The notes beneath the pieces were generated by a model. The model ran no database searches. It was not told the DNA's origin and was given only the letters and a program-made list of their open reading frames with translations. From Synechococcales cyanobacterium C42_A2020_086 (GTDB lineage Bacteria > Cyanobacteriota > Cyanobacteriia > Elainellales > Elainellaceae), in the NCBI GenBank assembly GCA_015272325.1, contig JACYLU010000002.1, positions 372,001 to 436,000 of the forward strand: a stretch of 64,000 nt of DNA. Direction: 5' to 3'. The first letter of the stretch is position 1; each line of letters begins with the position of its first letter. The translations under genes and the position numbers were made by a program. This document shows positions 5,678 to 34,644 of this stretch, in pieces.

Positions 5678-8305
5678 TCAGGACAAGCCTGCCTGGAGTT
5701 GCTCCCGAGCTGCTTGCAGAGCAGCGGGCAGTTGATCGGCATCCCGTCCTCCAGCTTGCGCCAAATTGGGACGACCACCCCCGCCGCCGCCACAAAGTTT
5801 GGCAATGGCACCAATCAGTTTGCCGGCCTGCAATCCTTTTTGATTCACCGCCGGGCTAAAGGCAGCTACCAGGCTGACCTTCTGCGGCTCTGGTACAGAC
5901 CCTAGCACTACCGCACCTTCACCAAGCTTTTGCAGCAGCCGTTCGGCAACGGTCTTCAGGGCATCGGCATCGACGCCTTCGAGCTGCGCCACGAGAATTT
6001 TGAAGTTCCCCACGGCTTCTGCCTGCCCCAGCAACTGGTCGGATTTAGCCAGCGCTAGCTCTGCCTTCACGGCCTCTAGCTGTTTCTGTGTGGCTTTGAG
6101 TTCAGCTTGCAGCGCCGTGATTCGCTCGGGCAGCTCTTCCGGCTTGGCTTTGAAGCGGTCTCCGAGTTCCCGCACTACCCGGTCGCGCAGGTTGAGGTAC
6201 TCCAGCACCGCCGGTCCGGCTACGGCTTCGATGCGGCGAATTCCGGCTGCTACCCCCGACTCAGAGATGATTTTGAACAGTCCGATTTCGGCTGTGTTTT
6301 GCACATGGGTGCCGCCGCACAGCTCCATGGAAACGCCGGGAAAATCGATCACCCGTACCTCGTCTGCATACTTTTCGCCGAACATGGCAATTGCTCCCTT
6401 GGCTTTGGCTTCGGTGAGCGGCATCACGGCCACATGGGCGCGATGGGCTTCTGCAATCCAGGTGTTGATTTGTTCCTCGATCCGCTGCAGCTCTTCCGGC
6501 GTTACTGGGCGCGGCAGATTAAAGTCAAACCGCAGCCGATCAAAGGCGACGAGCGATCCCGCCTGCCCGATGTTTTCATCGACAATTTGCCGCAGAGCCG
6601 CCTGCAGCAGGTGGGTAGCCGTGTGATTCGCCTGCGCTCGTCGTCGGCAGGCCAGATCGATCTGGGCTGTGACCACATCGCCCACTTGCAGGGTGCCGCG
6701 CTCTACTCGCCCAAAGTGGACAAAAATGCTGCCTTCTTTTTTGACATCCTCGATGCGCACCAGCAGCGAGTCGCCCGAGAGATAGCCCTGATCCCCAATT
6801 TGCCCGCCCGATTCCGCATAGAACGGTGTGCGATCGAGAACAATTTGCACCGAGGTTCCAGCCGTGGCCGAGCTAACCGTCTGCCCCTCCACCAGAAGCA
6901 GCGTCACCGTTGCCGGACTAGCCACCTGCTCGTAGCCAAGAAACTCGGTTTCCCGTAGCTGCTCGGCCAGCGTGTCGAGGGTGCCCTGCACAGTGAGATC
7001 AATCGTTTCGTGAGCATCTCGCGAGCGGGTCCGCTGCTTTTCCATCTCCGCTTCAAAGCCAGAGACATCCACCGTTAACCCTTTCTCTTCAGCAATTTCC
7101 TGGGTTAGCTCCAGCGGGAAGCCGTAGGTGTCGTAGAGAATGAAGGCATCTTCACCGGAAATTTCCCCCGACGGCGTTCCTTTCTCCAGGATTTCGGCCA
7201 CCAGCTTTTCGCCCCGGTCCAAGGTCTTGCGGAAGCGAGCTTCTTCTTCCTGCAAACTGGCTTTGATCGAGCGTTGGCGCTGCCGCACATGGGGATAGGC
7301 CTCCTCAGAGAGGGCAATCGCTGTTTCCGCCACCTCGACGGTAAAGGGTCGCTCAATGCCCAGCAACCGCCCATGCCGCACGACGCGCCGAATCAACCGT
7401 CGCAGCACATACCCCCGCCCCTCATTGGAGGCGTCGATGCCGTCGGCAATCATATGGACTACTGCCCGGATGTGATCGCCAATCACTTTCAGCGACACTT
7501 TGGTTTTCTCATCGGCCTGAGCGTAATCTATGCCAGCAATGGCCGCCGCCGTTTTAATGATGGGGAAGATCAAATCGGTTTCGTAATTGTTGGGCACCTT
7601 TTGCAGAATCTGCGCCATTCGCTCTAGCCCCATGCCGGTGTCGATGTTTTGGGCTTGCAGCGGCGTCAGGTTGCCGTCGGCGTCGCGGTTATACTGCATG
7701 AAGACCAGGTTATAGAACTCGATGAAACGAGTATCGTCTTCGAGATCAATTGCATCGTCGCCGCGCTCGGGATGAAAGTCATAGTAGATCTCCGAGCAAG
7801 GGCCGCAGGGACCCGTCGGACCGGATGCCCAGAAGTTGTCATCTTTGCCCATGCGGATGATGCGATGGGGCGGCACCCCAACCTGATCGCGCCAGATCGC
7901 GAAGGCCTCATCGTCGTCTTCAAAAACGCTGACCACCAGCCGCTCGGGCGGAAGCTGAAATACCTCGGTCGATAGCTCCCACGCCCAGGCAATGGCCTTT
8001 TCTTTGAAGTAGTCGCCGAAGCTGAAGTTGCCCAGCATCTCAAAGAAGGTGTGGTGGCGAGCCGTGCGCCCGACGTTCTCAATGTCGTTGGTGCGGATGC
8101 AGCGTTGGGCTGTTGTGGCACGGGGAAACTCGGCCTGCCGCTGTCCTAAAAAGATTGGTTTGAAGGGCAACATGCCAGCAATCGTCAGCAGCACCGTGGG
8201 ATCTTCTGGAACGAGCGAGGCGCTAGGCAGGATACGATGCCCCTTGGCTGCATAAAAGTCCAGGAAGGTCTGGCGAATTTGGGAGCCGCTGAGAACAGTA
8301 GACAT
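5678..8305 (-). CDS. alaS: Alanyl-tRNA synthetase
   Basis: 875 residues, the normal length for bacterial AlaRS, charging tRNA-Ala in the cytoplasm. The N-terminal class II core ([14 protein letters not shown], then the [15 protein letters not shown] segment) is followed by the editing domain with HTATH and the Cys-His site CGGTHV, then a coiled coil and the Gly-rich C-terminal domain ([15 protein letters not shown]). The frame stays open upstream, but ATG 8305 ([12 protein letters not shown]) matches the family start. It is monocistronic and divergent from the diguanylate cyclase gene. Confidence 0.97.
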
Positions 8306-13636: not shown

Positions 13637-14623
13637 ATGTCTCGTCACCTCGAACGACTCCTTCAGCTCGATGCTCTGCTGCGCTCCCAGCACCGGCAGA
13701 CCGCAGCTAGTTTGGCTCAGGCGCTAGAAGTCAGCGAACGCACCATCCGCAGTGACCTGGCGTTTCTACGCGACCGCTACCACGCTCCCCTAGAGTTCAA
13801 CAGAACGCAAGGCTATTACTACAGTGACCCAGAATGGCGGTTACCGAGTATTACCCTTAGCCAAGGCGAACTGTTTGCCCTGACCCTGGGAGCCAGAATG
13901 CTAGAAGCCTATGCCGGTTCTGCCTATGCTGCTGACTTGCGCTCTGCCATTGCTCGCTTAGCCGAACGCCTGCCAGAACAAAGCTGGGTGGATTTGCAAC
14001 AGGTTGCTGATGAGCGGATTCTGTTTCGCTCTGGTGCTGCCATTGGTCTGGATCCTGAAATCTGGCACAAGCTAGAAGATGCTTGCCGTACGCAAAAAAC
14101 GGTGCAGATGACCTACTACACCGCTAGTCGCGACAGCACCTCGGAGCGCAAGCTAGATCCTTACGTATTGCATATCTATCGAGGCACCAATCCCTATGTG
14201 ATTGGCTTCTGCCATCAGCGTCAGGAGATTCGCTGGTTTCGAGTAGACCGGATCAAGTCACTGACGGTTCTGACGAAGACCTTTGTGCCTGACCCAACGT
14301 TCGATGCCAAAGACCATTTAGAACTGATCTTCCAGCATGAAGCAGGGGGTGTGCCCCAGCCCGTCGCCATCTGGTTCGATGCCAAAACCGCTCCCTATGT
14401 ACGAGAACGCCGCTGGCATCCGAGTCAGGATATCCAGGAACACCCGGACGGCTCGCTGACACTGCGGATGGTAGTCCGCGGGCTGAATGATCTAAAGCGC
14501 TGGGTGCTGGGCTACGGCAAAGGGGCAATTGTAAAAGCGCCACCGGAGTTGGTGCAAATGGTACGAGAGGAAGTATCCGTTATGTGTCGTCATTATGCAG
14601 CAAATCAGAATGCCGACGACTGA
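13637..14623 (+). CDS. WYL-domain transcriptional regulator of the CRISPR locus
   Basis: 328 residues. An N-terminal DeoR-type winged helix (LAQALEVSERTIRSDLAFLRD, about residues 24-44) is followed by a WYL domain (about 150-230, with VQMTYYTASR and the ligand-binding Arg/His region ending in IRWFRVDRIKS) and a WCX C-terminal extension. WYL regulators sense nucleic-acid or nucleotide ligands and are common next to phage-defence genes. It lies 127 bases upstream of cas6 on the same strand, so control of the cas operon is a reasonable inference. No other target is visible. Confidence 0.85.
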   Translation: MSRHLERLLQLDALLRSQHRQTAASLAQALEVSERTIRSDLAFLRDRYHAPLEFNRTQGYYYSDPEWRLPSITLSQGELFALTLGARMLEAYAGSAYAADLRSAIARLAERLPEQSWVDLQQVADERILFRSGAAIGLDPEIWHKLEDACRTQKTVQMTYYTASRDSTSERKLDPYVLHIYRGTNPYVIGFCHQRQEIRWFRVDRIKSLTVLTKTFVPDPTFDAKDHLELIFQHEAGGVPQPVAIWFDAKTAPYVRERRWHPSQDIQEHPDGSLTLRMVVRGLNDLKRWVLGYGKGAIVKAPPELVQMVREEVSVMCRHYAANQNADD

Positions 14624-14750
14624 ACACATACTGAGATTTGACGTGAAGACATGATGAAGAAAGGGAATTCTTGAAGTGATTGGGATGGGGACGGAAGGCT
14701 AGGACAATGAACAAACCATTTAAGTTAGTTGGTGCTGGAGGAGATTCAAA

Positions 14751-15413
14751 ATGAATTTTCTGGAGATTCAATTTGCTTTGCGGGGAAGAACGTTACCTGC
14801 GGATCACGGTTATGCGCTGTATTCAGCCGTAAAACAGCTCCTCCAGCGGTCAGAAGAATCAATGAATTTTGATTTTACTGATCTTCCCACGGATGTTCGG
14901 CTATGCAGCATTGCAGGAGTTCCAGATAAAGATGGCATGATCTATCTGCATCGCGGCTCACGGATGCGGTTGCGCTGTCCAGCGGAACAGGTGCAGGTTT
15001 GGTATCGATTGATGCAAAATCAGGTGCTCGATGTTAAAGGACATTTGATTCGCCTGATTCAACCTCGGCTGATGCTGCTCCAACCCAGCCACATTCTCAA
15101 ATCGCGATTGGTAACGTTTAAGCTGGAATCGATTGATCACGCGGAAGTGCCCTACTACTTTTTGGAGTCCTGCAGGAAAGGGCTAGAGCGGTTGGAAATC
15201 AATGCCCAAGCCTTGATTGACAGTACGCCTGATGGTGATTTGGCGAGACGCACACTCAAAGTCAAGGATAGGTTTATTTTGGGTTATGGCGTTGTTGTCG
15301 AAGGGCTGAGCGACGAAGATTCATTAAAGCTGCAATGGCATGGTTTGGGTGGACGGCAGCATTTCGGCTGCGGCTGGTTTTATGCCCCAAAGGAGGGTTT
15401 AGATGCCGCCTAA
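14751..15413 (+). CDS. cas6: Cas6 pre-crRNA endoribonuclease (MYXAN/Cmx6 type)
   Basis: 220 residues, shorter than many Cas6 proteins but right for the Cmx6 branch. The C-terminal Gly-rich loop GLGGRQHFGCGWFY is the Cas6 RNA-binding signature. It should cut the repeat at the base of the GCC-GCAA-GGC hairpin, giving an 8-base 5' handle TTGAGCAC on each crRNA. GGAGGAG lies 6-7 bases before ATG 14751. The stop overlaps the cas3 start by 11 bases, so translation is coupled. Confidence 0.85.
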   Translation: MNFLEIQFALRGRTLPADHGYALYSAVKQLLQRSEESMNFDFTDLPTDVRLCSIAGVPDKDGMIYLHRGSRMRLRCPAEQVQVWYRLMQNQVLDVKGHLIRLIQPRLMLLQPSHILKSRLVTFKLESIDHAEVPYYFLESCRKGLERLEINAQALIDSTPDGDLARRTLKVKDRFILGYGVVVEGLSDEDSLKLQWHGLGGRQHFGCGWFYAPKEGLDAA

Positions 15414-17670
15414 TTCCACACCACCCAGACTAAAGCCAGATATTCTTTTAGCAAAATCCTCGCTACCAGGAAATCCTGACTGGAAAGGGACCCATCATCT
15501 GGTCGGCCACACGGCAGCAGTTGTGGAGTCAGTGACAACTCTGGTTGATACCTTAGGCCCAAATTTGCTCCAGCAGTTTGGATTAAGCCGTGATTTTGAA
15601 ACCCTGCGAGCTACTGCGCGATTGGCGGCTTATCTACATGACTGGGGCAAGGCCAATGACCACTTTCAAATGGTCGTGAGAAATGATCTGACCTCATTGC
15701 CTGCCCAATATCGGCGCAATCCACTGCAACATCCGCAGATGATTCGTCATGAGGTGGCTTCTGTATTGCTAGCCTGGGAGTTTCGAGAATGGCTAAGTCA
15801 GTGCCCGAATGCTGACTTGATGACGGCGATCGCCGCTGCGGGTGGGCATCACCTTAAGCTAGGCGGTAAGCAGGGGCGAGACACCAGTGAACTGGGGGAA
15901 GTTCGGGAAGGTACTGGAGATACCTGCCTTTACTGGTATGTCCATCATCCTTACTTCCGCAAGCTGATTCGCTATGGAGTCAGAACGCTGGGGCTACCTC
16001 GAAAAATTCCCCCCTTTCGGTTCTCGCAGCGATGGGAGATTCACGAAATCAAGCGAGAAAAACGTCAGGCAGTCCTCAATGCGTTGGAGGATTGGGAGCC
16101 AGATACTACATTCCTGGCGGTGATCAAAGCGTTACTTGTAGCAGGCGATGCAATTGGTTCAGCGTCAGCACAGATTGCGATCAACATCCAGCAATGGGTT
16201 CAAGAAGAATTGGCGAATACCCTGACAGAAGCTGATCTCCAGCGGGTCATTGACGCACGGCGAGGCAATAATCCGCTGCGGCGGTTCCAGGTTGACCTAA
16301 AGGAAAAGTCTACGCGGGTGACGATGGCGCGGGCAGGCTGTGGCACGGGAAAAACCCTCGGAGCCTACAACTGGGCACAGCGCCATGCTATCGGACGCAA
16401 GTTGTTCTTTTGTTACCCCACGACTGGCACTAGCACAGAGGGCTTTCTGGACTATGTGCACAACCAAGTGGAAGCAGAGCTTTTGCACTCTCGCTCAGCC
16501 GTTGATTTGGAGCTGGCCTGCACGGGTGAGGAAGTGGAAAATGGCGATGGAGAAATTAACGAAGCCGCGCAAAAATTAGACTCGTTCAAAGCTTGGGGAG
16601 CAAAGGTCAATGTTTGCACCGTTGATACGGTCTTGGGATTACTGCAATGCAATCGTCGTCCTATGTATTGCTTTCCGGCGATCGCCAATGCTGCTTTCGT
16701 CTTTGATGAAGTCCACTGCTACGACGACGCATTATTCGGAGCTTTGCTGCGATTTCTCAACGTCGTTAAAGCGCCAATTTTACTTATGTCTGCTTCGTTT
16801 TTACCGGCGCAGGTGGAGGCAATTCGGGAGGCAGTGGGAGAGCCTGTTGAGATTATCCAGGGGCCGCAGGATATTGAACACCTGCCCCGCTACCGGTTCC
16901 ATGAGCTAGCACAGCCCGACTGGGAGCGTGTCAAACAAGAACTGGCTAACGGCGGTAAAGTTCTGTGGGTGTGCAACCAGGTGAATACGGCGATCGCTGT
17001 CTATCAGCAAGCCAAAGCTTGCGGACTTCGACCCCTGCTCTATCACAGCCGCTTTCGCTATGGCGATCGTGTCGAACACCATCGTGCGGTTGTAGATGCC
17101 TTCAAACAAAATCAGCCCGTCCTGGCGGTCACCACGCAGGTAGCAGAAATGTCACTGGACTTGTCCGCAACGCTCCTGGTGACTCAAATTGCCGACCCCG
17201 CAGGTTTAATCCAGCGGTTGGGACGGCTCAACCGTCAGTACTGTGGTCATGCGTTGGATGCGCTCTTTTACCCCGACGACAAGGTAGGTTTTCCCTACAG
17301 CGCAGATGAGCTAGATGCAGGCTTGGCGCTGGTGCGAGGGTTCTCTGGTGAAGTCAATCAGGCACAACTGGCTGCCTGGCTAGAGAAACTTAATATTCAA
17401 GGCACACCGAAAGATCACTTTGTCTGGCTAGATGGCAAATGGAAAACGTACCCTGCGCCCCTGCGTGAGGCGGGCTATACCGTAACCGCACTGCTCGAAC
17501 AGGATCAGGCAGAAATTGCCCAGCTCAAATCGAGTGAACTGCCCCGACATACCGTTCCCTTACCCACCAAGAACATCAAAGGTTGGCTGCGCCACAAGAA
17601 GGGGTATCTCATCGCCCCCAAGGAGCAGTGGGGCTATGATCCAGAATTCGGTGCGTTTGAACTCAAGTAG
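15403..17670 (+). CDS. cas3: Cas3 helicase-nuclease
   Basis: 755 residues. The N-terminal HD nuclease domain has the conserved His near residues 31-36 (HHLVGH) and the HD pair in AAYLHDWGKANDHF (about 79-80). The SF2 helicase follows, with Walker A GCGTGKT (about 313), DEVH box (about 435), SAS motif III and a C-terminal helicase lobe ending in LIQRLGRLNRQ. It degrades target DNA once Cascade is bound. It begins inside the end of cas6 behind AAGGAGGG. HD and helicase parts are both present and look active. Confidence 0.93.
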   Translation: MPPNSTPPRLKPDILLAKSSLPGNPDWKGTHHLVGHTAAVVESVTTLVDTLGPNLLQQFGLSRDFETLRATARLAAYLHDWGKANDHFQMVVRNDLTSLPAQYRRNPLQHPQMIRHEVASVLLAWEFREWLSQCPNADLMTAIAAAGGHHLKLGGKQGRDTSELGEVREGTGDTCLYWYVHHPYFRKLIRYGVRTLGLPRKIPPFRFSQRWEIHEIKREKRQAVLNALEDWEPDTTFLAVIKALLVAGDAIGSASAQIAINIQQWVQEELANTLTEADLQRVIDARRGNNPLRRFQVDLKEKSTRVTMARAGCGTGKTLGAYNWAQRHAIGRKLFFCYPTTGTSTEGFLDYVHNQVEAELLHSRSAVDLELACTGEEVENGDGEINEAAQKLDSFKAWGAKVNVCTVDTVLGLLQCNRRPMYCFPAIANAAFVFDEVHCYDDALFGALLRFLNVVKAPILLMSASFLPAQVEAIREAVGEPVEIIQGPQDIEHLPRYRFHELAQPDWERVKQELANGGKVLWVCNQVNTAIAVYQQAKACGLRPLLYHSRFRYGDRVEHHRAVVDAFKQNQPVLAVTTQVAEMSLDLSATLLVTQIADPAGLIQRLGRLNRQYCGHALDALFYPDDKVGFPYSADELDAGLALVRGFSGEVNQAQLAAWLEKLNIQGTPKDHFVWLDGKWKTYPAPLREAGYTVTALLEQDQAEIAQLKSSELPRHTVPLPTKNIKGWLRHKKGYLIAPKEQWGYDPEFGAFELK

Positions 17671-17681
17671 GAGGTGAGATT

Positions 17682-19196
17682 TTGAGTCAATTTACCTTAT
17701 CGATCTTTGATCCAAACTTTCTCTTACCCCATCGAGCAGGGATTGCAGGGTTGGCCCTAGCACTATCCGAACTAGAAAGCCAACGTGGGCAGGCTCCTTT
17801 GACTTGGAAAGTCACCGATGAGGCGGTTGAACTGGAATGGGAAGGGAGCGATCAAGCCGTTGTGAAATGGCTACTCGATCGAACGTATCGGATTAATAGC
17901 CAAGGTTATCTGGAAGTTCCTGCCCTCAAGCTAGATGAGCAGGGACAATATACCTTCACGCAGGGTGTGTTATCGACTTTTCTCCAGCACTCACAGCAGC
18001 GAAAACTAGATAGTAATTCTATAACCCGCACGTTTTTGATTGATCCAGATCAGCCAGAAATTCAAATCGACGTGAAATCGCTGTTGAGTTGCTATTACAC
18101 CAGTGAGATGAAGGATGCCTTTAACAATAAGGGTGCCTTCAAGAAGGAAATTGCGCTAAAGGGAAATCACTTGCCCGGACTGGTGGAATGCTTTGTCAAT
18201 GGACCTTACCAGGAGTCTCCTGAAGGGTTTCTGGCCTTGCTGTTTCTGCCCCTTGCCTGCGGCTACTACAAGCTGCCACCCCAGACTGTTGGCGGCAAAC
18301 TATCAGGTCGGTCAGCCTTGGTTATTCCCGATGTTCAAAACTTGACGCACTGGGTCAGCCGCCGTCGAGCCATGCCAGGGCGTACTTATCGAGACTTTCG
18401 TAGCAGTGGTGCTGGCGAATCTGCCTTGCACTTCCTGTTGCAGGAGAAGGTTGTTGAAGCAGCCCAACCATTTCGGGTGAACTACTGCGAAGTCTATCAA
18501 CTGGGCAAGCAGGTTTGGGATGGCAATCAGTCCTACCTGAAACAGGCGGTGTATCGTGTGCAGGTCACTGATGAAGTGCTGCACTTGTATGAAGTGGCCC
18601 GGCAGGTCTTTCCAGCACTCGTTCGACAAACTGAAAACGGAGAAACTTGGCTGGCTGTTTCTAAAACACTGCCCTGGATTTGTGACAACTTGATTGCTGG
18701 CAAACCCTGGTATGCAGGCTTTTTTGAGTTTCGCAAACGTAACGGAGTCTATGAACGCAAAGGATTGGTAAAAATGACTGAATACTTGAATGCTGAAGAA
18801 CAAGTGCTGTTTGATGTGGTGCAGGGTGCGTTTAGCAAATACCTGTACGGACAGTTTAAGCAAGCTCAAAAACAGGGTCGTTCTTTGGATTATGGGCAAG
18901 TGACCGATAAGGTGATTTATCGGTTTCAGCGTCCCAGCACACAGCAGGAATTTGCTACAGCGTTGGTTGACTTCTTGAGTCAATTTCGCAGTAAAGCGGC
19001 TCGCGACAAAGGGCCTCAGATTTTCCACTGGGTACATCGAGAGGAAAACTGGCGGCGGGCACGAGATTTAGTGCTGCTGGCGATCGCCACCTACACCAGC
19101 AAGAAAGGGGATGCCCTTGATGGGGTAGAGGTGCCGATTGAATCTTCTGCTGAACCAGAAGGAGATGAGGCTGAGATGTTTTCGATGAGTGTGTAA
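17682..19196 (+). CDS. cas8: Cas8 large subunit, Cmx8 (MYXAN type)
   Basis: 504 residues. It sits where the Cascade large subunit is expected, between cas3 and cas7, and resembles the Cmx8/Csx13 group (FLLPHRAGIAGLALAL near the N-terminus; a Tyr/Lys-rich middle). It would recognise the PAM and stabilise the R-loop. The start codon is TTG 17682, supported by AGGAGGTGA 5-6 bases upstream; no nearer ATG fits. The subtype assignment rests on gene order and weak recognition, since Cas8 proteins are very divergent. Confidence 0.75.
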   Translation: MSQFTLSIFDPNFLLPHRAGIAGLALALSELESQRGQAPLTWKVTDEAVELEWEGSDQAVVKWLLDRTYRINSQGYLEVPALKLDEQGQYTFTQGVLSTFLQHSQQRKLDSNSITRTFLIDPDQPEIQIDVKSLLSCYYTSEMKDAFNNKGAFKKEIALKGNHLPGLVECFVNGPYQESPEGFLALLFLPLACGYYKLPPQTVGGKLSGRSALVIPDVQNLTHWVSRRRAMPGRTYRDFRSSGAGESALHFLLQEKVVEAAQPFRVNYCEVYQLGKQVWDGNQSYLKQAVYRVQVTDEVLHLYEVARQVFPALVRQTENGETWLAVSKTLPWICDNLIAGKPWYAGFFEFRKRNGVYERKGLVKMTEYLNAEEQVLFDVVQGAFSKYLYGQFKQAQKQGRSLDYGQVTDKVIYRFQRPSTQQEFATALVDFLSQFRSKAARDKGPQIFHWVHREENWRRARDLVLLAIATYTSKKGDALDGVEVPIESSAEPEGDEAEMFSMSV

Positions 19197-19371
19197 AGCC
19201 TACCATTATCAATCAAGGCTTGACATGGTAAAAAAGACGCTCAACCGCATTCGTGGTACTACGCCGAATATTGAGCAGGCTGCCAAGCATCTCAGAAAAC
19301 ACCAACCCCCAGCAGAATCTTGCTGATGGGAGGCACTGAGAAATAAAAAGCTGCATAGCTTGCGTTTTCGT

Positions 19372-19393
19372 CTTCTCCCAACGTTGGGAGAAG
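19372..19393. repeat. REP-like perfect palindrome between cas8 and cas7
   Basis: An 11-base arm CTTCTCCCAAC is followed directly by its exact complement, then by GGGGCTAGGGGATGAGGG. This is the type of dispersed palindromic repeat common in cyanobacterial intergenic DNA; a related but degenerate copy lies near 29411-29516. It occupies the 267-base gap between cas8 and cas7, the only large gap in the effector part of the operon. In RNA it would form a strong hairpin. Confidence 0.75.
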
Positions 19394-19463
19394 GGGCTAG
19401 GGGATGAGGGCAATCAACCATAATACCAACCCCCAAACACTTAATTTCAAGGAGACTCAAATC

Positions 19464-20823
<1,360 letters not shown>

Positions 20824-20841
20824 TCAAGACAGATCTAAACC

Positions 20842-21519
20842 ATGCAACTTTACCTAGACTGTCCCTGCACTAGCTTTCCCCGCAGCTTTGCACGAGACTT
20901 CAAGGAAACCTATCGCTACCCACCACCATCGACGGTTTACGGGCTGCTGCTGTCGCTAGTAGGCGAGGTCGATATGACGGCGCATATTGGTGTGAAGTTG
21001 GGAATCGGAATAATTGGCAGCGATCCACCCATTTCACGCATTGTGCGAAAACAGCGGCACCATAAGTTCAGCAAAACTCACTTGGGGACTTACCCGACCG
21101 GCAAGTTCTCAAAGCCCAATCATCATGAACTGCTGACTGATTTACGGGCGGTGGTCCGAATTGATTCCAGCGAAGAAACGGCAGCAGTAAAACTCGTGGA
21201 TCGAGTGGCGATTGCCCTCTCCACGCCAGCCCAGATTACCCGTTTTGGTGGGCTAAGTTTGGGTGAATCGTGGGCAATGGTGAATGGGATTCGAGTGTAT
21301 CGAGAGTCCGATGGTGAAATTCGCTGGTTGGTTAAAGACCCACGGGGATTAATTGGTCTGCCAGTTTGGATCAACCGCCAAACGACGCAAGGCACATTTC
21401 AGCGCTTCTCCATATCTGAGCCAGGACAAACCTTCACAGAGCAATGTCTGGTTTCAATTCAACTGCCCGCAGCACCTGCAAAGGCGACCAAAGCCAAGCG
21501 CGGTAAAAAGTCAGTTTAG
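20842..21519 (+). CDS. cas5: Cas5 (DevS/Cmx5 type)
   Basis: 225 residues. The N-terminus (LYLDCPCTSFPRSFARDFKETYRYPPPSTVYGLLLSL) is the Cas5 RAMP pattern in which the conserved PPPSTVYG loop precedes the first helix. It caps the 5' handle of the crRNA in Cascade. The basic tail (KATKAKRGKKSV) is unusual but short. It follows the toxin gene by 18 bases and is the last gene of the effector part. Confidence 0.85.
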   Translation: MQLYLDCPCTSFPRSFARDFKETYRYPPPSTVYGLLLSLVGEVDMTAHIGVKLGIGIIGSDPPISRIVRKQRHHKFSKTHLGTYPTGKFSKPNHHELLTDLRAVVRIDSSEETAAVKLVDRVAIALSTPAQITRFGGLSLGESWAMVNGIRVYRESDGEIRWLVKDPRGLIGLPVWINRQTTQGTFQRFSISEPGQTFTEQCLVSIQLPAAPAKATKAKRGKKSV

Positions 21520-21537
21520 CTCTGCGGCTGATTTCGC

Positions 21538-21569
21538 CCAACCTCTGATTGCCGCAAGGCGTTGAACAT
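21538..21569 (+). repeat. Degenerate CRISPR repeat outside the array, next to cas5
   Basis: The segment shares CCAACCT with the array repeat, then a 5-6 base variable stretch (one extra base), then an exact 15-base run GCCGCAAGGCGTTGA, and ends ACAT where the array has GCAC. The Cas6 hairpin GCC-GCAA-GGC is fully kept, while the 5' GTGAG is lost. It is in the same orientation as the array, 18 bases after the cas5 stop. A second hairpin (AGAGCA/TGCTCT, 21597-21614) lies about 28 bases further on. Confidence 0.85.
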
Positions 21570-21607
21570 TACACTAGAGCCAGTACCCTTGCTTTCAGAG
21601 CACAACC

Positions 21608-21885
21608 ATGCTCTATTACGGGCGCTTTATTGATGCTATCGAAGTCATTTCGGGGCAAACCTTTGGTGAAATGCCCGAGAAAGCAACAGACTATTTAGCT
21701 GCCGGGATATCCTGCTGGGTGGTTGATCCGAGAGCGAAAAGCGTCAGCGTATTTCTTCCAGATGCGTCGCCCAAAACCTATCGAGGCAACCGATTGCTTG
21801 AGACGTACTGCTGGGACTCTGTCTAACACCTGAGCAGGTATTTGAGAAGGCTGGGTTAGCTATATTGTCCTTAGAAACTGGTTAA
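21608..21885 (+). pseudogene. Uma2-family (DUF820) endonuclease remnant, frameshifted
   Basis: The first frame reads DAIEVISGQTFGEM...EKATDYLAAGISCWVVDPRAKSVSVF, the middle of a Uma2 protein (PD-(D/E)XK fold). Near 21800 the reading continues in another frame as DVLLGLCLTPEQVFEKAGLA, the usual Uma2 C-terminal strand. The N-terminal third is missing. Uma2 genes are widespread in cyanobacteria and decay often, so this is probably a passenger rather than part of the CRISPR system. Confidence 0.72.
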
Positions 21886-21940
21886 ACGTTAGATTCTGTT
21901 GGCTGAAGTTGTGTTGGGTGTATCCCTGTTCTCGTGACAT

Positions 21941-22087
21941 ATGATTGAACGCGGTAGTCGCCGCATTGATGAATCAAGGGTGTTGCCCGGATTGGGCATT
22001 GAGATTCTAGAACCAGCAATTCAGCAGAGTCGAGAGACAGATCAATCCCAGGTGGGACGTTGGCTGATGGGGCAGTTTCAGGGCTAG
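21941..22087 (+). pseudogene. Second Uma2-like C-terminal fragment
   Basis: A 48-codon frame from ATG 21941. The segment DESRVLPGLGIEILEPAI followed by an SRETDQSQVGRWL tail resembles the C-terminal end of a Uma2 protein. It may be another piece of the preceding remnant or a separate copy. Assignment is by eye and tentative. Confidence 0.45.
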
Positions 22088-22300
22088 ATGATTGAGCGAT
22101 GTATGACTGAGTGACAGTTTATCTAAAATCATTAATCGTCAATCTGGTGATTACAGAAATACATTTGTATTCATAATGAAAAAATCCGTAGAATCGCAGA
22201 GCGGATGATTTCGGAATGCTCGGGTTTATTTTGGTAGCCACCACTGAAGATATGGGTTAGCCACTCAACGGCTAGTTGCTTTGTTGTCACTTGTATTTTT

Positions 22301-22322
22301 TATAGTTCCTGTATAGTTCCTG
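22301..22322. repeat. 11-base tandem duplication just before cas4-cas1
   Basis: TATAGTTCCTG occurs twice back to back and ends 3 bases before the ATG of cas4-cas1. No Shine-Dalgarno sequence is present there, so the duplication sits exactly where transcription and translation of the adaptation genes would begin. Confidence 0.7.
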
Positions 22323-22325
22323 AAA

Positions 22326-23987
22326 ATGAATATTCTCGTTTCGCCGGAGCCGGTTCAGGAGACGCTGCGTGTGTCGTCTCTGCATGCGTTGGCGTACTGC
22401 CCGCGGTTGTTTTATCTGGAAGAAGTCGAAGAACTCTACACGCAAGATGCGGCGGTGTTTGCTGGGCGCAGGCTGCATGTGGAGATTGAAAAAGCAGAGG
22501 GCGATACTTACGAATCGCTGACGTTGGAGAATGAGGCGTTGGGGCTGCGGGGCAAGGTGGATGCTCTGCGAACGCGAGGCGGGCAGACGATTCCCTACGA
22601 GCATAAGCGGGGGCGCTGTCGGCGGGATGGGCAGAACCAGCCGCAGGCGTGGGAGAGCGATCGCTTACAAATTCTTGCCTATGCTTGTTTAATCGAAGCG
22701 GCGTTGGGCGTGACGGTGACCGAAGGGCGGATTCGCTACCATGCCGACAATGTGCTGGTGAGGGTGCTGCTGGATGACCAAGGGCGGCAGGAGGTCAGGG
22801 AGGCGATTGCCCACGCTCGGCAGCTGCGTCGCTCAACGGAACGTCCGCCCGTGACGAGCAACGAACGGCTGTGTGGGCGCTGTTCGCTCGCGCCGGTGTG
22901 TTTGCCGGAAGAAACGCGCTTTGCCCAGGATGAGGCTGTTCAGCCCACTCGCTTGTTTCCGGAAGATGATGACCGAGAGATTTTGCATGTGCTGGAGCCG
23001 GGCACCTGTGTGGGCAAGAGTGGCGATCAGATTAAAATTAGCCGCCGCGATCAGTCCGTGACGACGCTACCGGCGCGGCAGGTGGGGCAGATTGTGCTGC
23101 ATAGCTATGCCCAAATTTCTACTCAAGCGCTGCATTTCTGCGCCGAGCAAGAGATCGGGGTGCATTTTGTTTCGGGCGGCGGGCGCTATATCGGCAGCTT
23201 TGACGGTCGCCAGGGCAGCATTCAGCGGCGCATTCGCCAGTATCGAGCGTTGAGCAGTCCTGAAGTGTGTTTGCAGCTTGCTCGGCGACTCGTGCTGTGC
23301 CGGGGGCAGAGTCAGCGGCGCTTTTTAATGCGGGGGCAGCGCAATCAGAGTTCGGCATCTGAACGATTGCAGCCGACGATCGACCAAATGGAGCGGCTCC
23401 TGAGATTAGTGCCGCAGGCAGAGTCGCTGGAGCAGTTGCTAGGGCTGGAGGGTAATCTGGGGGCGCTCTATTTTGGGGCGTTGCCTGGCTTGATCGCCGA
23501 GGGGGTGCCGCAGGAACTGCGCTTTGGTCGCCGCAGTCGCCGTCCGCCGCTCGATCGGTTTAATGCGCTGCTGAGTTTTGGCTATGCCCTGCTGCTGAAG
23601 GATGTGGTGAATAGCATTCTGACGGTGGGGTTGGAACCAGCCCTCGGGTTTTACCATCAGCCCCGCACCCAGGCACCGCCTCTGGGATTGGATCTCATGG
23701 AAATTTTCCGGGTGCCGCTGGTGGATATGACGGTGATGGGCGCGGTGAACCGGGGACAGTGGGAGGTGTGGGATGACTTTGAGGTGCGCGGTCAGCAGGT
23801 ATGGCTGCGGGAGAGCGGTCGCCGCAAGTTTATTGACCTGTATGAGCGTCGTAAGCAGGAAACCTGGAAGCATCCGATTTTGAAATACTCGCTGACCTAC
23901 CGCCGGCTGATGGAGCTAGAGGTGCGGCTCCTGGAAAAGGAATGGATGGGGGAAGGACAGTTGTTTGGTCATCTGGTAATTCGCTGA
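22326..23987 (+). CDS. cas4-cas1: Cas4-Cas1 fusion, spacer-integration nuclease
   Basis: 553 residues. The N-terminal ~200 residues are a Cas4/RecB-like exonuclease, with an early Cys ([10 protein letters not shown]), the E-x-K motif in YEHKRGR and a Cys cluster [10 protein letters not shown] for an Fe-S site. The rest is Cas1, with [13 protein letters not shown], the catalytic-region [21 protein letters not shown] and [11 protein letters not shown]. It should trim prespacers, choose PAM orientation and integrate them. It is followed 8 bases later by cas2. Fused Cas4-Cas1 proteins are known from Dev/MYXAN and I-G type loci. Confidence 0.93.
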
Positions 23988-23995
23988 GGTGGGCT

Positions 23996-24289
23996 ATGCC
24001 GGAGAGCAAGAATTATTATCTGATCTGCTACGATATCCGTGACCCGAAACGCTGGCGGCAGGTATTTAAGCTGCTGAAAGGCTATGGTGAAAGCCTGCAA
24101 TATTCCATCGTGCGCTGCCGCTTGACGACCCGCGAGCGGGAGAAGCTACGCTGGGAGCTGGAGAAAATTCTCAAAGCGGAGGATAGCCTGCTGATTGCCG
24201 GATTGTGTGACCGCTGCGTGGAGCGAATTCAAAGCTGCAATCGCCCGGAAAGTTGGGTGATGCCAGACGATGCCCACCGAATTTTCTGA
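23996..24289 (+). CDS. cas2: Cas2 adaptation protein
   Basis: 97 residues from ATG 23996 behind a GAGGTGGG site (an upstream in-frame start at 23942 lies inside cas1). The ferredoxin-like fold begins [24 protein letters not shown] with the conserved first-strand Asp, and [17 protein letters not shown] follows. It forms the integrase complex with Cas4-Cas1. The array leader starts right after it. Confidence 0.93.
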
Positions 24290-24551: not shown

Positions 24552-24566
24552 GTGAGCCAACCTTAG
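24471..24566 (+). CDS. Possible 31-residue leader ORF ending inside the first repeat
   Basis: ATG 24471 is preceded by AGAGGAAG with about 5 bases spacing, a good ribosome site, 11 bases after the putative -10 box. The frame reads MAKMTMATQDLENLLSNLD then continues to HAVSQP and stops at the TAG in the repeat's CCTTAG (24564-24566). No family was recognised. It could be a translated leader peptide, the stub of a gene the array grew into, or chance. Confidence 0.4.
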   Translation: MAKMTMATQDLENLLSNLDSKQISRHAVSQP

Positions 24567-27500
24567 ATGCCGCAAGGCGTTGAGCACAAAAATTCATCTA
24601 TTGAGACGACTCTAGCAGGTTGGTCCCGTGAGCCAACCTTAGATGCCGCAAGGCGTTGAGCACTCAATCAGGAACGCGCCTGACTCAGCGTTCCCGATTT
24701 GTGAGCCAACCTTAGATGCCGCAAGGCGTTGAGCACAAAAACGACCGCTTGGCGATTTTAATCGCCCACCGTGAGCCAACCTTAGATGCCGCAAGGCGTT
24801 GAGCACTTGATGAACGCGATCGCGTCCTTGCAGCCATCGCGGTGAGCCAACCTTAGATGCCGCAAGGCGTTGAGCACGTGTCGGTCGCGATAGTCTCGCA
24901 ACAAAGCCGCGAGTGAGCCAACCTTAGATGCCGCAAGGCGTTGAGCACTGGGTCACCTTTAACCCCCGCTATCCCAGCGATATGTGAGCCAACCTTAGAT
25001 GCCGCAAGGCGTTGAGCACAATCTGTTTAAAGTCCAGATCCGTGCGCCAAACCGAGTGAGCCAACCTTAGATGCCGCAAGGCGTTGAGCACCTCCGGGCT
25101 GTTGCCCGTCTTCCAGACAAACTGCTGTGAGCCAACCTTAGATGCCGCAAGGCGTTGAGCACTGGGTGGTACTCGATTAAATGGGTTATTCACTCACGTG
25201 AGCCAACCTTAGATGCCGCAAGGCGTTGAGCACCGCCTTCAGGTCTGAAACACTATGATTTTCACGCCGTGAGCCAACCTTAGATGCCGCAAGGCGTTGA
25301 GCACGTACATCACCTTTTCCCTAGAAGACGAATCAGTGGTGAGCCAACCTTAGATGCCGCAAGGCGTTGAGCACCCCCGGCTCCCAGCTTTAACACAACC
25401 CTGACTGTCGCGTGAGCCAACCTTAGATGCCGCAAGGCGTTGAGCACTTAATACTCCTTTTTGAATCGCCTCATACATCTCGTGTGAGCCAACCTTAGAT
25501 GCCGCAAGGCGTTGAGCACATTCACGGACGATTGGATATCAGCAATTTCTACGCGTGAGCCAACCTTAGATGCCGCAAGGCGTTGAGCACTTTGGGGTTC
25601 TAAGCTCATCAAAACACCTCTGAGAAGTGAGCCAACCTTAGATGCCGCAAGGCGTTGAGCACGGCTTTTGGGAACGATTCAACGATCTTGTCTCCCAGGT
25701 GAGCCAACCTTAGATGCCGCAAGGCGTTGAGCACATTCTGCAAGTTGGGCTTGCGCTTTTTGGGCTTCGTGAGCCAACCTTAGATGCCGCAAGGCGTTGA
25801 GCACCGAGGAAAAGCCCGAACTTGGGGTACCCCAACAACGTGAGCCAACCTTAGATGCCGCAAGGCGTTGAGCACCGGCCGACCTCCTAGACCTATGCGT
25901 TTTCACCTTGAGTGAGCCAACCTTAGATGCCGCAAGGCGTTGAGCACGCTGAACCCTGTCTGGGTTCAGATTTTGAGGACTCGTGAGCCAACCTTAGATG
26001 CCGCAAGGCGTTGAGCACTTTTGTGTGCCTTACACTTGGCGTATACTACTTGTAGTGAGCCAACCTTAGATGCCGCAAGGCGTTGAGCACTAGCTGAGCA
26101 AGTACGTGCTAAAGCACAGAGCACGTGAGCCAACCTTAGATGCCGCAAGGCGTTGAGCACGTTTGGAGTTCGATGCAATCTCTGACTCTCAATTCGTGAG
26201 CCAACCTTAGATGCCGCAAGGCGTTGAGCACTTGGGGGTTTTTCGCTTGGTCAACCCCAATCGGGGGGTGAGCCAACCTTAGATGCCGCAAGGCGTTGAG
26301 CACAGCTACCGGGAACATGAGGAGCTACCGGGAACGTGTGAGCCAACCTTAGATGCCGCAAGGCGTTGAGCACTCTGCGTCCGCGGTTGCGGCGGCACCG
26401 GCACTTGTTGCGCGTGAGCCAACCTTAGATGCCGCAAGGCGTTGAGCACATTATCGCCGACGAACTGTTGGCTCCTGGCAATCGTGAGCCAACCTTAGAT
26501 GCCGCAAGGCGTTGAGCACTGACCACGCCAGACGACCAGATCTTCCTGACGGCGTGTGAGCCAACCTTAGATGCCGCAAGGCGTTGAGCACCTGGACGGC
26601 CTCGGCGTAGACTACGTGGGGCGACTGTGAGCCAACCTTAGATGCCGCAAGGCGTTGAGCACTTATTACGCTCTGAACGTTGTTGCGATTGTTCAGAGGT
26701 GAGCCAACCTTAGATGCCGCAAGGCGTTGAGCACGACCGCCTAAAACGGCAGCTGAAACTAATTCACCTTTGTGAGCCAACCTTAGATGCCGCAAGGCGT
26801 TGAGCACTATCTCTTGTAGACGACGAAGCCCTCGACCTGCTCGTGAGCCAACCTTAGATGCCGCAAGGCGTTGAGCACTTTGGTACAGCGTCGAAGCGCA
26901 ATACACCGGCACGTGAGCCAACCTTAGATGCCGCAAGGCGTTGAGCACCGGGTTTCAGCTACTGGGGTCAGACGAAAGAATGCGGGTGAGCCAACCTTAG
27001 ATGCCGCAAGGCGTTGAGCACAATACAAGGTAACAGCGACTACCGGAACGGGAAATGGTGAGCCAACCTTAGATGCCGCAAGGCGTTGAGCACCGGAGGC
27101 AACGGGCAACATGCTGCAAGCGGAGTGGGTGAGCCAACCTTAGATGCCGCAAGGCGTTGAGCACGTTAGTCCGCCGCCAAACAGCGATCTGGGAACGAAG
27201 GCAGGTGAGCCAACCTTAGATGCCGCAAGGCGTTGAGCACTGCAGGCGTTGGGTCCGGTCCCTGCGGACCGGGAGAGTGAGCCAACCTTAGATGCCGCAA
27301 GGCGTTGAGCACTGTATCGCTCAATAATTTGAGGCTCTCGATCATTGGTGAGCCAACCTTAGATGCCGCAAGGCGTTGAGCACACCTAATAACCACATGA
27401 CTGAAATACGCATTAAAGACGTGAGCCAACCTTAGATGCCGCAAGGCGTTGAGCACGGACGGGCGCTGTCGCCCTACCCCACTCCACCGCCTGTGAGCCA

Positions 27501-28453
27501 ACCTTAGATGCCGCAAGGCGTTGAGCACTAGAAAGATTTCAGGGTGATACCCAAAGCCAGAAAAGTGAGCCAACCTTAGATGCCGCAAGGCGTTGAGCAC
27601 TTAGAACACAACAATATATTCAAGAGTTGATTAACGTGAGCCAACCTTAGATGCCGCAAGGCGTTGAGCACGCGAACTATCTCAACTTTGAAAGCGGCGG
27701 ACTGCGGTGAGCCAACCTTAGATGCCGCAAGGCGTTGAGCACCGGATCTTGGCGGTGCCAATCTCCGCGGTGCCGATCTGTGAGCCAACCTTAGATGCCG
27801 CAAGGCGTTGAGCACTAAAGAACCAATTCCTCTGTCTGTTGCCCCGTTCGTGAGCCAACCTTAGATGCCGCAAGGCGTTGAGCACGCTATTAGAAAAACC
27901 GCCTAACCAACTCAGCTTGGTGAGCCAACCTTAGATGCCGCAAGGCGTTGAGCACGTTACGGGTAACTCAGGTGGTAACCGAGTGGTGAGTGAGCCAACC
28001 TTAGATGCCGCAAGGCGTTGAGCACCCCGGCTGAAGAAGCAGTTTACCCAGGATTGCGCGAGTGAGCCAACCTTAGATGCCGCAAGGCGTTGAGCACTCT
28101 CTATCCTCGACATGACCACAAGCGGGATTAGGTGAGCCAACCTTAGATGCCGCAAGGCGTTGAGCACCAACCGAGCAATCTTTCGCCTTCTGTTTGCCGC
28201 AGCGTGAGCCAACCTTAGATGCCGCAAGGCGTTGAGCACATTAGGATTGTTTAGAACAGGTTTGTTGCGATCAGTGAGCCAACCTTAGATGCCGCAAGGC
28301 GTTGAGCACAGCTTTTGGGAACGATTCAACGATCTTGTCTCCCAGGGTGAGCCAACCTTAGATGCCGCAAGGCGTTGAGCACGTACTGTCCCGTTGAGGC
28401 AACTTCCCGCTCACCTAGTGAGCCAACCTTAGATGCCGCAAGGCGTTGAGCAC
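24552..28453 (+). CRISPR. CRISPR array, 55 repeats and 54 spacers
   Basis: I counted 55 copies of a 36-base repeat starting GTGAGCCAACCTTAGATG and ending GCGTTGAGCAC, spaced by 33-40 base spacers (mean unit about 71.6). All copies look identical by eye, including the last, so there is no decayed terminal repeat here. The centre forms a short stem with a GNRA loop (GCC-GCAA-GGC, extendable by U-G and A-U), the likely Cas6 site. Leader and cas2 lie at the low-coordinate end, so new spacers enter there. Spacers 16 and 53 are nearly the same. The minus-strand frames across the array are repeat artefacts. Confidence 0.98.
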
Positions 28454-28474
28454 TGGGAGAGGTATCAACTTCGG

Positions 28475-29379
28475 GGTAGTGAGTCAAATTAATGTGGGGT
28501 AAGTAGCGATGTCGTGCCAATTCCACGATTGTGTTGTTAGTCCTGCTCGCTGTGCAGCAGTGGTTTTGAAGCGGCTATGCTGCCAAACCCAGTTGAAATA
28601 ACTCCCCACTAACGGTGTCGTCACCTTGATTTATTCCCAAACCTTGCCAAACTTATTCTGTCGTCGCTGCTATCTTCCCGTTTGTTGTCGCAACGTTCCA
28701 TTTGTCCGCTCCAATCGCTGTGTTTTATCTTTGTCAATGTAATGATTTGATTTCTGGCGGCAACCCTCGCTCGTATCCACCCCAGTCATCGGTATTCAAC
28801 TGTTTGCAATCAGTTTTGCCTTCAGTATTCATGACTAATTGCTCTATGAACGCATCGGTGTGTTTGCCCACGCAGGCGGTGAGAATCAAGCCACTGAAGC
28901 AGGCAAGACTCGAACCAATCCAACAGTCGCCCCGATTTAGTTCCTTGCTGGTGCATTGCTTCTGTTTTCTGCGACAAATGACCCCATTTCGTCGGCACAG
29001 CCTTCTTCAGTCTCGACGGATTGAACCTCCCCGTTATGCACCCATTGGGCTTTTTGACTGGCAGAGCGCACAATACTCACCACGGTATTGTAGGCAAGTC
29101 CACTGGTCCGGCTAATGCCTCGATAAGCTACTGCCCTCGCTGTGCGCTTGCAGCACTTGGTGAATTTGTTCAGGACTGACATGGCGGCGGTAATAAAGAC
29201 TATCGAATGACTCACCAAAGGTTTGATGGCAAGCGGGACAGAGATAGCGTTGATGACCATTGGGCATCTTGCCATGCTTATGGGTTTTGCTATGACCGCA
29301 CAGTGGGCATTCTATCGCTTTGATTCCAGTCGAGGTTCCTCTCTACTTGATCAATCCCACATTAGCCTGACGCACCACC
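28475..29379 (-). mobile_element. Decayed IS1-family insertion sequence
   Basis: About 905 bases, bounded by 24-base imperfect terminal inverted repeats at 28475-28498 and 29356-29379 (both share GGT, GTG, GTCA and TAATGTGGG in register). It lies 21 bases after the last repeat, so it cuts the 55th spacer. I found no clear target-site duplication next to either end, which suggests a later deletion or rearrangement at one end. The transposase inside is broken. Confidence 0.85.
28484..29321 (-). pseudogene. IS1-family transposase, several frameshifts
   Basis: Read on the minus strand, the N-terminal zinc-binding part (CPLCGHSKTHKHGKMPNGHQ ... CPAC) gives way after HSEGSS to a second frame with YRGISRTSGLAYNTVVSIVR and ETEEGCADEMGSFV. 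Further segments (GKHTDAFIEQLV, then TDDWGGYERGLPPEI, and WQHSRFKTTAAQRAGL near the end) lie in other frames. The first shift may correspond to the programmed shift known in IS1, but the later ones and a stop mean the gene is dead. Confidence 0.85.
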
Positions 29380-32455: not shown

Positions 32456-32798
32456 CAGATAAGCTCCGAAGGATGAGTCAACAATTCTGAGATGCGGTTC
32501 TGTAACCGTTGCTACTCATCTTATGAATCGATCACCCATCCGCTCATCTGAAGAACGTCATGAACACCCTTCAACGAAAGAAATAACTGGGGAGTCAGCG
32601 ATCGCTGAGTTTTGTGCGATCGTCTCCACCTTTCGTTGATGTACCTGTGCGCTCCCATCAGCGAAAGTCGTAATTTAGTCGCATAGGGTAGTCAGTTTCA
32701 GGAATCTCGCAGTATTAGTAAGTAGATAACTGGATCGATCCACACAACTAATCGCAACTGGACAGGACTGAGGATTTATGAATGCCACCTTGGTTGAC
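32456..32798. other. Upstream region of the DUF4347 gene
   Basis: No gene. Two GCGATCGC-type sites occur near 32600-32625 (AGCGATCGCTG, TGCGATCG). The stretch probably holds the minus-strand promoter of the DUF4347 gene. It ends at the inverted repeat of the IS3 relic. Confidence 0.45.
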
Positions 32799-33036
32799 TG
32801 ATCTTGCCCCAATAAAGTGGACATTCTCAAAGAGTCGAAAATCAAGGCAAACTTTCCAATTGCCCTGATGTGCGACGCCCCAGAAGTTTCCAGAAGCGGC
32901 TACTATACTCGATGCAAACGGACTCCATCAGCTTTGAACTATCTTTCCCTGGTTCAGTTCGAGCAGCAGTATTGGTCATCTCTGCAACAGTCCGCAGCAG
33001 CTTAACCGAACTGTCCATTTTTTCAGAGCAAGATCA
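32799..33036 (+). mobile_element. Internally deleted IS3-family relic (about 238 bp)
   Basis: Two 25-base imperfect inverted repeats bound the element: TGATCTTGC...TGGACA at 32799-32823 and its complement at 33012-33036 (about 20 of 25 match). Only the start of an IS3-type OrfB lies between them, so most of the element has been deleted and it is now MITE-sized. It ends 20 bases before the orphan CRISPR repeat. Confidence 0.8.
32817..33005 (+). pseudogene. Fragment of an IS3-family transposase (OrfB N-terminus)
   Basis: 62 residues. The stretch SKIKANFPIALMCDAPEVSRSGYYTRCKRTPSA matches the start of IS3-family OrfB proteins (helix, then the VSRSGYYAW motif). The integrase core with its DDE residues is absent, so it cannot be active. 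Confidence 0.82.
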
Positions 33037-33056
33037 GTGACGACCTAAACGTCATT

Positions 33057-33091
33057 GTGAGCCAACCTTAGATGCCGCAAGGCGTTAGCAC
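33057..33091 (+). repeat. Orphan CRISPR repeat, 4.6 kb beyond the array
   Basis: 35 bases identical to the array repeat except for one missing G (GCGTTAGCAC instead of GCGTTGAGCAC), in the same orientation. 20 bases of possible spacer remnant separate it from the IS3 relic. Its last 7 bases overlap the 3' end of the convergent aminopeptidase gene, whose TAA stop (33085-33087 on the minus strand) lies within the repeat. Confidence 0.95.
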
Positions 33092-34644
33092 TCACGATTC
33101 ACGACTTGCCGACTCTGAGAGCTTTGGGGCTGAGCTGACAATTCACCCTGCACGAGCTGCTCAATCGCATCCGCCTGAGTCGGTAGGGCAGCCGTTAGCA
33201 CCTCACTGCCGGTTTCGGTAATCAGCACATCGTCTTCAATGCGGATGCCGCGCACATCTGCAAATTGAGCTAGCCGTTCCCAGTTGACCACCTCACGATA
33301 GCGCTGCTGCCGCTCTGGGTCCTGCAAAATTGCCGGCACCTGATAGAACCCTGGCTCGATGGTCACCGCCATGCCCGGACGCAAAGGCCGATCCAACCGC
33401 AGATAGCTCAGCCCAAAGCGGTCGCTGCGGACCCGCCCCGCCTCGTAGCCGGCCAGATCGCCCAGATCCTCCATATCGTGAACATCCAGCCCGAGCAAAT
33501 GCCCGACTCCGTGCGGAAAAAACAGCGCGTGGGCGTCCATTGCGACTAGATCCTCAGCTCGACCGCGCAGAATGCCGAGATCGCTCAAGCCGGCTGCAAT
33601 CACCTGAGCCGCCAACAGATGCAGATCGCGATACTCCACCCCAGGACGGGACTGCTGAATGCACTGGTCATGGGCGGCCAACACGACGTCGTAGAGATCG
33701 CGCTGCGTTGGGGAGAATTGACCAGACACCGGCCAAGTCCGGGTGACATCCGACGCCCAACCCGAAGGAGCTTCTGCCCCCAGATCGGCCAGCAGCAGAT
33801 CGCCGGGTTGCAGCAGATGATGGTATTGCTCGTTGTGTAGCACTTCGCCATGCACCGTGACAATGCTGGAGTAGGCGCAAGTTGTATTGTGCGCCATGAC
33901 GACTGCTTCCATGGCCGCCCGCACCTCCGCTTCGGTTTGAGCGTGGGGCGTAGCTGCCATGCCCGCTCTATGGGCCGCTACCGTGATGGTCGCTGCTCGA
34001 CGGATTTCATGCACAGCCGCGGCATCATGACTCAGGCGGAGTTGAATAATTGCTTCGGCGAGCAGCCGGTCGTGGTCGTGCAGCCGGTTGGGCGTCAGCG
34101 GCCGGTCGAGAAGCTGAGATTGCAGCAGGCGTGTCGCTGGGTCGGGGACGGGAATGGTGGCAGCTCCAGCGGTGAAATCCTTGAGCTGGTCCAACGGATA
34201 GGCAGCCTCAGCACCTATCTGGGCGGCAATCTCGTCGCGGGGTGGGGTGTCCCCATGCCAGAGGCGGTCGGCAGGGGTGGCATCGTCTAGGAATAGCGTC
34301 AGCGTGCCGTCGTATAGGTGAATTGCGGCATGGGGGAGCGGCAGCCCAGCAAAGTAGAGGAAGTGGCTGCTAGCCCGAAACGGATAGGTGTTGGCTGGAT
34401 AGTTGCGCGAAGACCTGCCTCCGGCCCAGAGCACCACCGGAAATTCCACCTGTGCGGCTAATCGCAGGCGGCGCTGCTTTAGAATCATCGGCAGCGAGAG
34501 CGAATCGGGGGCAACGGGGGAGGTGATCGGGTGCGGCATCGTCAGGGTAGCTTCAAGCTCTATGTCACTACCATATCGCTGGATGAGGGTTTTGGTGGCC
34601 GGCCCAGATGCCAGTGCCATGCTTGAATTAGCGGATTGACTCAT
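33085..34644 (-). CDS. pepP: Xaa-Pro aminopeptidase (aminopeptidase P, M24B)
   Basis: Up to 519 residues. An N-terminal AMP-binding/creatinase-like domain (about 50-190, FPVVLWAGGRSSRNYPANTYPFR) precedes the M24 pita-bread catalytic domain, with metal ligands in LLADLGAEAPSGWASDVTRTW, HGVGHLLGLDVHD, TIEPGFY and RIEDDVLI. It removes N-terminal residues preceding proline. ATG 34644 overlaps the end of nei; ATG 34620 or 34539 are alternatives. The last residues (NREC) and the stop are supplied by the orphan CRISPR repeat, so the natural C-terminus may have been changed. Confidence 0.9.
   Translation of the reverse strand: MSQSANSSMALASGPATKTLIQRYGSDIELEATLTMPHPITSPVAPDSLSLPMILKQRRLRLAAQVEFPVVLWAGGRSSRNYPANTYPFRASSHFLYFAGLPLPHAAIHLYDGTLTLFLDDATPADRLWHGDTPPRDEIAAQIGAEAAYPLDQLKDFTAGAATIPVPDPATRLLQSQLLDRPLTPNRLHDHDRLLAEAIIQLRLSHDAAAVHEIRRAATITVAAHRAGMAATPHAQTEAEVRAAMEAVVMAHNTTCAYSSIVTVHGEVLHNEQYHHLLQPGDLLLADLGAEAPSGWASDVTRTWPVSGQFSPTQRDLYDVVLAAHDQCIQQSRPGVEYRDLHLLAAQVIAAGLSDLGILRGRAEDLVAMDAHALFFPHGVGHLLGLDVHDMEDLGDLAGYEAGRVRSDRFGLSYLRLDRPLRPGMAVTIEPGFYQVPAILQDPERQQRYREVVNWERLAQFADVRGIRIEDDVLITETGSEVLTAALPTQADAIEQLVQGELSAQPQSSQSRQVVNREC

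Follow-up and report, generated by a model that had tools for sequence, protein, structure and literature searches.

The CRISPR repeat standing alone at positions 33057-33091 of the window (the whole stretch of 64,000 nucleotides analysed here) most probably once formed the leader-distal end of the type I-B array to its left, from which incoming mobile DNA and a gene would have severed it, a reading that leans on analogy with related arrays. Such stranding of a terminal repeat when an array is split is ordinary, being already attested and met here at a new location; the orphan is best read as a dead remnant. The features concerned are the following.

14751..24289, plus strand: type I-B (MYXAN) cas operon (cas6, cas3, cas8, cas7, cas5, cas4-cas1, cas2)
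24552..28453, plus strand: CRISPR array of 55 identical 36-nt repeats and 54 spacers of 34-40 nt, its leader side being the cas2 side
28454..28474, plus strand: 21-nt spacer stub between the last array repeat and the left end of the IS1-family element
28475..29379, no strand assigned: relic IS1-family element, left end at 28475, with other copies in the genome
29561..32455, minus strand: DUF4347 gene, 964 aa (domain match, E 4e-62)
32799..33036, no strand assigned: internally deleted IS3-family remnant with inverted ends
33037..33056, plus strand: 20-nt stub, the putative 3' part of a spacer, between the IS3 remnant and the orphan
33057..33091, plus strand: orphan repeat with one base deleted (repeat fit, edit distance 1)
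33085..34644, minus strand: Xaa-Pro peptidase gene, its stop codon (33085-33087) inside the orphan repeat

The orphan repeat and the neighbouring array

The array lies downstream of a cas operon annotated as cas6/Cmx6, cas3, cas8a1/Csx13, a DevR-type cas7, a DevS-type cas5, a cas4-cas1 fusion and cas2. The leader, or cas2, side of the array is on the left, and the orphan is on the leader-distal side, where decay in related arrays is mostly found. The plus-strand sequence at 33057-33091 is the array's 36-nt repeat minus one G (GTTGAGCAC -> GTTAGCAC), and its strand is identical to that of the array. When the whole 5.9 Mb genome was searched with up to three mismatches allowed, the 21-nt core of the repeat was found 56 times, with 55 copies in the array and one in the orphan, and never on the opposite strand; the reversed core, used as a control under the same conditions, gave no matches. 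The runner-up fits of the repeat on both strands of the window required 9 edits, at 21567 (a site itself repeat-like), and then at least 11. An exact 25-nt core of the repeat found no matches among genome contigs, in a search from which the genome's own record was possibly left out. These results bear out the first-pass annotation, which had described a single repeat with one deleted base, in array orientation, 4.6 kb downstream of the array; the IS1 relic, DUF4347 gene and IS3 relic that it had placed in between were all found.

Within the array, spacers 16 and 53 (25663-25698 and 28310-28346) are near-identical, with differences at their edges. Between cas7 and cas5 (window 20330-20823) the operon holds a gene for a toxin of the ParE type (E 3.8e-14), with a small ORF upstream of it. 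Between cas5 and cas4-cas1 (window 21608-21826) is a fragment similar to the C-terminal portion of Uma2-family proteins, a match (E 4.4e-5) that does not reach the curated cut-off. The related locus L060 of genome G013, when compared with window 13637-24289, is 94-98% identical in cas3, cas8 and cas7 and just 70-82% identical in WYL, cas6, cas5, cas4-cas1 and cas2; judged by these identities, the L060 operon compared with the window is apparently a mosaic.

The broken spacer and the DNA between array and orphan

The array is interrupted inside a spacer, the end of the IS1-family element lying 21 nt past the last repeat. Four other copies of this element occur in the genome at 70-78% match, and three of them match from the same base, 28475, confirming the left end; the right end is at 29379. 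Two of its ORFs were searched and gave no Pfam match. No target duplication was seen at the element, whose flanks differ.

To the right of the IS1-family element come the DUF4347 gene and its upstream region, and after these the IS3 remnant. The remnant carries 27-nt inverted ends (32797-32823 and 33012-33038), and partial copies of it are present elsewhere in its own genome (L054) and in a relative, G022. The ends of IS3 elements run TG...CA; the boundaries of the remnant were set at 32799 and 33036 because of this convention, and therefore exactly 20 nt separate it from the orphan. The G022 copy ends in the same TG..CA way. A TGA/TGA duplication at the ends of the remnant was considered and dropped, as the TG..CA ends leave flanks that differ from one another.

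Together the two stubs come to 41 nt (21 + 20), compared with 34-40 nt in the 54 intact spacers; the sum is one base above that range, and its closeness to a spacer length could be due to chance. Since this is approximately the length of one spacer, spacer loss need not be assumed. The first-pass annotation had proposed that an unknown number of spacers was lost, a claim left unsupported by the stub lengths, although some loss may still have occurred. The left stub, searched as 19 nt, had no matches among viral contigs. One exact viral-contig match was obtained for 18 nt of the right stub, and as its flanks do not extend it was taken as chance. A search of the array against phage records retrieved five records, the best at E 0.3, with no worthwhile spacer match.

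Insertion of IS elements and prophages into arrays or CRISPR loci is on record (PMC10359306). The locus resembles such an IS-interrupted array in that an IS end lies inside a spacer and a repeat is left on the far side; it differs in that no target duplication brackets the inserted DNA and a non-mobile gene stands within the block. As neither IS has a target duplication, the arrangement is not the product of one simple insertion, and more than one event, or a later rearrangement, would be needed to account for it. Mobile DNA would have inserted into a spacer close to the far end of the array, leaving the IS1-family element against what would be the 5' stub of that spacer and the IS3 remnant against its 3' stub, with the DUF4347 gene between the two. 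The severed repeat would have stayed beside the peptidase gene and at some point lost one base; it now gives that gene its stop codon. The orphan should yield no guide RNA any more, because no second repeat bounds a spacer and any transcript starting in the array could reach it only through the intervening 4.6 kb of IS and gene sequence.

The stop codon of the adjoining peptidase gene lies within the right end of the orphan. In two relatives (G030 and G033), the peptidase ends two or three residues past a conserved '...IEQLVK', whereas the protein encoded in the window continues for about twenty residues past the matching '...IEQLVQ' to a stop inside the repeat. The tail being longer here and the stop lying in the repeat, the repeat now supplies the end of the gene. 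No 3' flank of the peptidase gene was shared among 30 loci (29 from family relatives plus its own), in a comparison for which minus-strand loci were also brought into orientation. In each of the six genomes of the same family with a match to the repeat core (G013, G018, G024, G026, G032 and G033), that match is on a contig other than the one with the best peptidase match.

An alternative order of events would make the 3.7 kb block formed by the DUF4347 gene and the IS3 remnant an original neighbour of the array, past which the orphan was moved by inversion, deletion or recombination between repeats. The missing target duplications at both IS elements would fit such a history, as would the presence of DNA homologous to the DUF4347 gene in G030 and G004. 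We nevertheless consider it very improbable: it requires more steps, the orientation of the orphan is preserved, and in G030 the DUF4347 and peptidase genes are on separate contigs. The neighbour of the DUF4347 gene in G030 gave partial, scattered matches only when compared with the window's own genome.

Orphan repeats beyond related arrays

We searched for cas8 in 388 genomes of the class, of which 55 gave a match, and annotated 38 loci in addition to that of the window; all but one (G008) fit the usual operon well enough for their repeats to be used. The evaluable arrays with at least three repeats numbered 27, including that of the window, and 17 of the 27 had at least 1.5 kb visible past the last repeat. 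The other ten were excluded, as the contig or the retrieved sequence ends too soon (G038, G171, G110, G049:C12, G330, G254, G070, G148, G024 and G041). Caution applies to G090, G139 and G175, whose arrays lie near the start of the retrieved sequence, ahead of cas6. Extra searches of the families around G230, G069 and G130 added one genome, with too short a contig. Among the genomes searched, that of the window alone represents its genus.

An orphan repeat more than 300 nt downstream was found in four of the 17 tailed cyanobacterial arrays, the window's included, at distances of 0.56-4.6 kb and on the array strand in every case:

Window: 4.6 kb downstream, array strand, 1 edit
G230: 0.82 kb downstream, array strand, 3 edits
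G095: 0.56 kb downstream, array strand, 3 edits
G130: 0.85 kb downstream, array strand, 7 edits

As controls, the opposite strand and the reversed repeat yielded no fit of 11 edits or fewer in all 17 tails, and tails shuffled 20 times each had minima of 9-12 edits.

Repeat variants indicate where two of these orphans came from. That of G230 is 1 edit from three variant repeats near the distal end of its array and 3 edits from the other 11; these three directly precede the final repeat of the array, which does not share the orphan's variant. The G095 orphan has a variant in common with the last repeat of its array, from which it is 2 edits away, compared with 3 for the other 34. We infer that both once formed the end of their arrays, because the variants are found only in the leader-distal repeats of the array concerned. 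The G130 orphan is 7 edits from all 26 repeats of a uniform array, on which the variant test is silent. With 55 identical repeats in the window, the same test cannot tie its orphan to the distal end, and the link is therefore drawn by analogy. The first-pass annotation had taken the orphan for the true end of the array. That proposal gains from the analogous orphans beyond three other arrays, two of the three with distal-only variants, and from the cut 21 nt into a spacer, but former contiguity in the window itself is argued by analogy.

The orphan could instead be what is left of another, older array with this type of repeat, which stood beside the peptidase gene and was never joined to the present one. 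Lone repeats do exist with no array nearby, as evidenced by a solitary near-perfect repeat in G026 (L058, about 9378, minus strand), where no cas match was found in the surrounding 19.5 kb, and the repeats of the window carry no variants that would prove contiguity. Against this, the orphan is on the same strand and contig as the array, 4.6 kb off, and 1 edit from a repeat otherwise unique to the array within the genome; the present array is visibly cut by an IS inside a spacer; and the G230 and G095 orphans carry variants of the distal repeats of their own arrays. A separate origin is thus unlikely.

The last repeat of the array is perfect, which the first-pass annotation had read as a sign of truncation on the ground that terminal repeats are normally decayed. 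Two published reports point the same way, one describing the terminal repeats of Escherichia and Salmonella as almost always degenerate (PMC2886076) and the other an accumulation of mutations and indels at array 3' ends (PMC4869251). In this family of arrays decay is no more than a tendency: the last recognised repeat was perfect in 10 of the 17 tailed arrays. In three of those ten (G090, G089 and G157) the next unit beyond it is a decayed copy, which leaves seven of 17; a distant orphan is present in three of the seven (the window, G130 and G230) and no orphan in the other four (G139, G097, G175 and G018), within the up to 8 kb that was searched. Perfection of the last repeat accordingly hints at truncation but does not prove it. 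The orphan itself is like a degenerate leader-distal terminal repeat in sequence, strand and side of the array, and is mutated where the array repeats are not; it differs in that 4.6 kb of IS and gene sequence, and not a single spacer, sets it off from the array.

The DNA between array and orphan encodes VapBC in G230, a PIN-domain gene in G130 and two small ORFs with no assigned family in G095, compared with the IS1-family element, DUF4347 gene and IS3 remnant of the window. The array blocks of G171 are separated by an insert that looks like a transposase gene and by a small ORF, both recognised by eye, and in G049:C3, which is outside the count of four in 17, a dehydrogenase gene precedes a two-repeat remnant. 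The inserts in relatives are at L133:10654-11440, L120:12729-13545, L140 about 7370-7930, L119:11993-12322 and 15160-16657, and L062:1017-2582. Because cassettes separate array and orphan in four of the 17 tailed arrays, with G049:C3 in addition, one might speculate, at rather long odds, that gene cassettes, toxin-antitoxin pairs among them, repeatedly land at the distal end of cyanobacterial type I-B (MYXAN) arrays. If so, a toxin-antitoxin pair there would penalise loss of the distal flank of the array, and a stranded repeat would mark the boundary of the cassette. The orphan changes no understanding of CRISPR biology. It helps to reconstruct how the array in the window broke, and it is a warning that array finders which go no further than the contiguous repeats can put the distal end in the wrong position, a distant orphan having been found in four of 17 tailed arrays here.

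Possible guide-RNA function, and repeat-like elements in cas operons

Ectopic repeats that act as guide RNA genes have been published (PMC9458426 and PMC8501985), and repeat-like guide elements occur in the cas3-cas8 gaps of related operons. The orphan might by the same token be a functional ectopic repeat, a CreA/CreR-like guide RNA gene directing the Cas effector to a nearby promoter. It shares with CreTA, CreR and CrePA a position outside the array near a type I-B cas operon. It differs from them in being almost intact, not degenerate, in having neither a second repeat nor a matching target, and in adjoining neither cas genes nor a small toxin gene. The sequence that would have to serve as guide is the end of the peptidase gene. 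Prefix matches to the 36 nt past the orphan do not exceed 9 nt anywhere in the window. None of them is a guide match beside a PAM at a promoter nearby, and both 9-nt matches lack the GATG seen ahead of the 10- and 16-nt matches in G110, G252 and G257. Such a function is extremely improbable, and a severed end of the array remains our preferred reading.

In the cas3-cas8 gap of related operons, two degenerate repeats flank a short spacer (L123:2992-3122, L146:3185-3316, L130, L116 and L117; also L129 and L138). The first 16 and 10 nt of the gap spacers of G110 and G252, respectively, match a site just past the second repeat on the opposite strand, with GATG before the matched site and a small ORF downstream. 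Similar gap-spacer matches were found in G257 (10 nt, GATG) and G038 (10 nt, twice, ATG), whereas G044 had none. When guides were drawn at random from these loci, they too reached 10-14 nt, and more where they fell in repeats, so that only G110 is distinct by length alone. These gap elements are CreTA/CrePA-like, and none is present at the window's own cas3-cas8 junction.

On the coding strand, the cas5 match is followed at a distance of 28-119 nt by a second kind of repeat-like element, a hairpin that usually has a T run after it; this lies at 21534-21567 in the window and in the same place in L119, L121, L130, L139, L147, L056, L057, L059 and L060. The pattern had 11 matches among the 38 loci, one of which (G083) is the array itself, leaving ten, with the place in G041 read by eye; in the 621 kb covered by all loci, it had none on the opposite strand. 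The element is possibly a repeat-derived terminator, a Cas6 site or a guide-like element, and the repeat-like elements inside the cas operons of relatives merit a study of their own.
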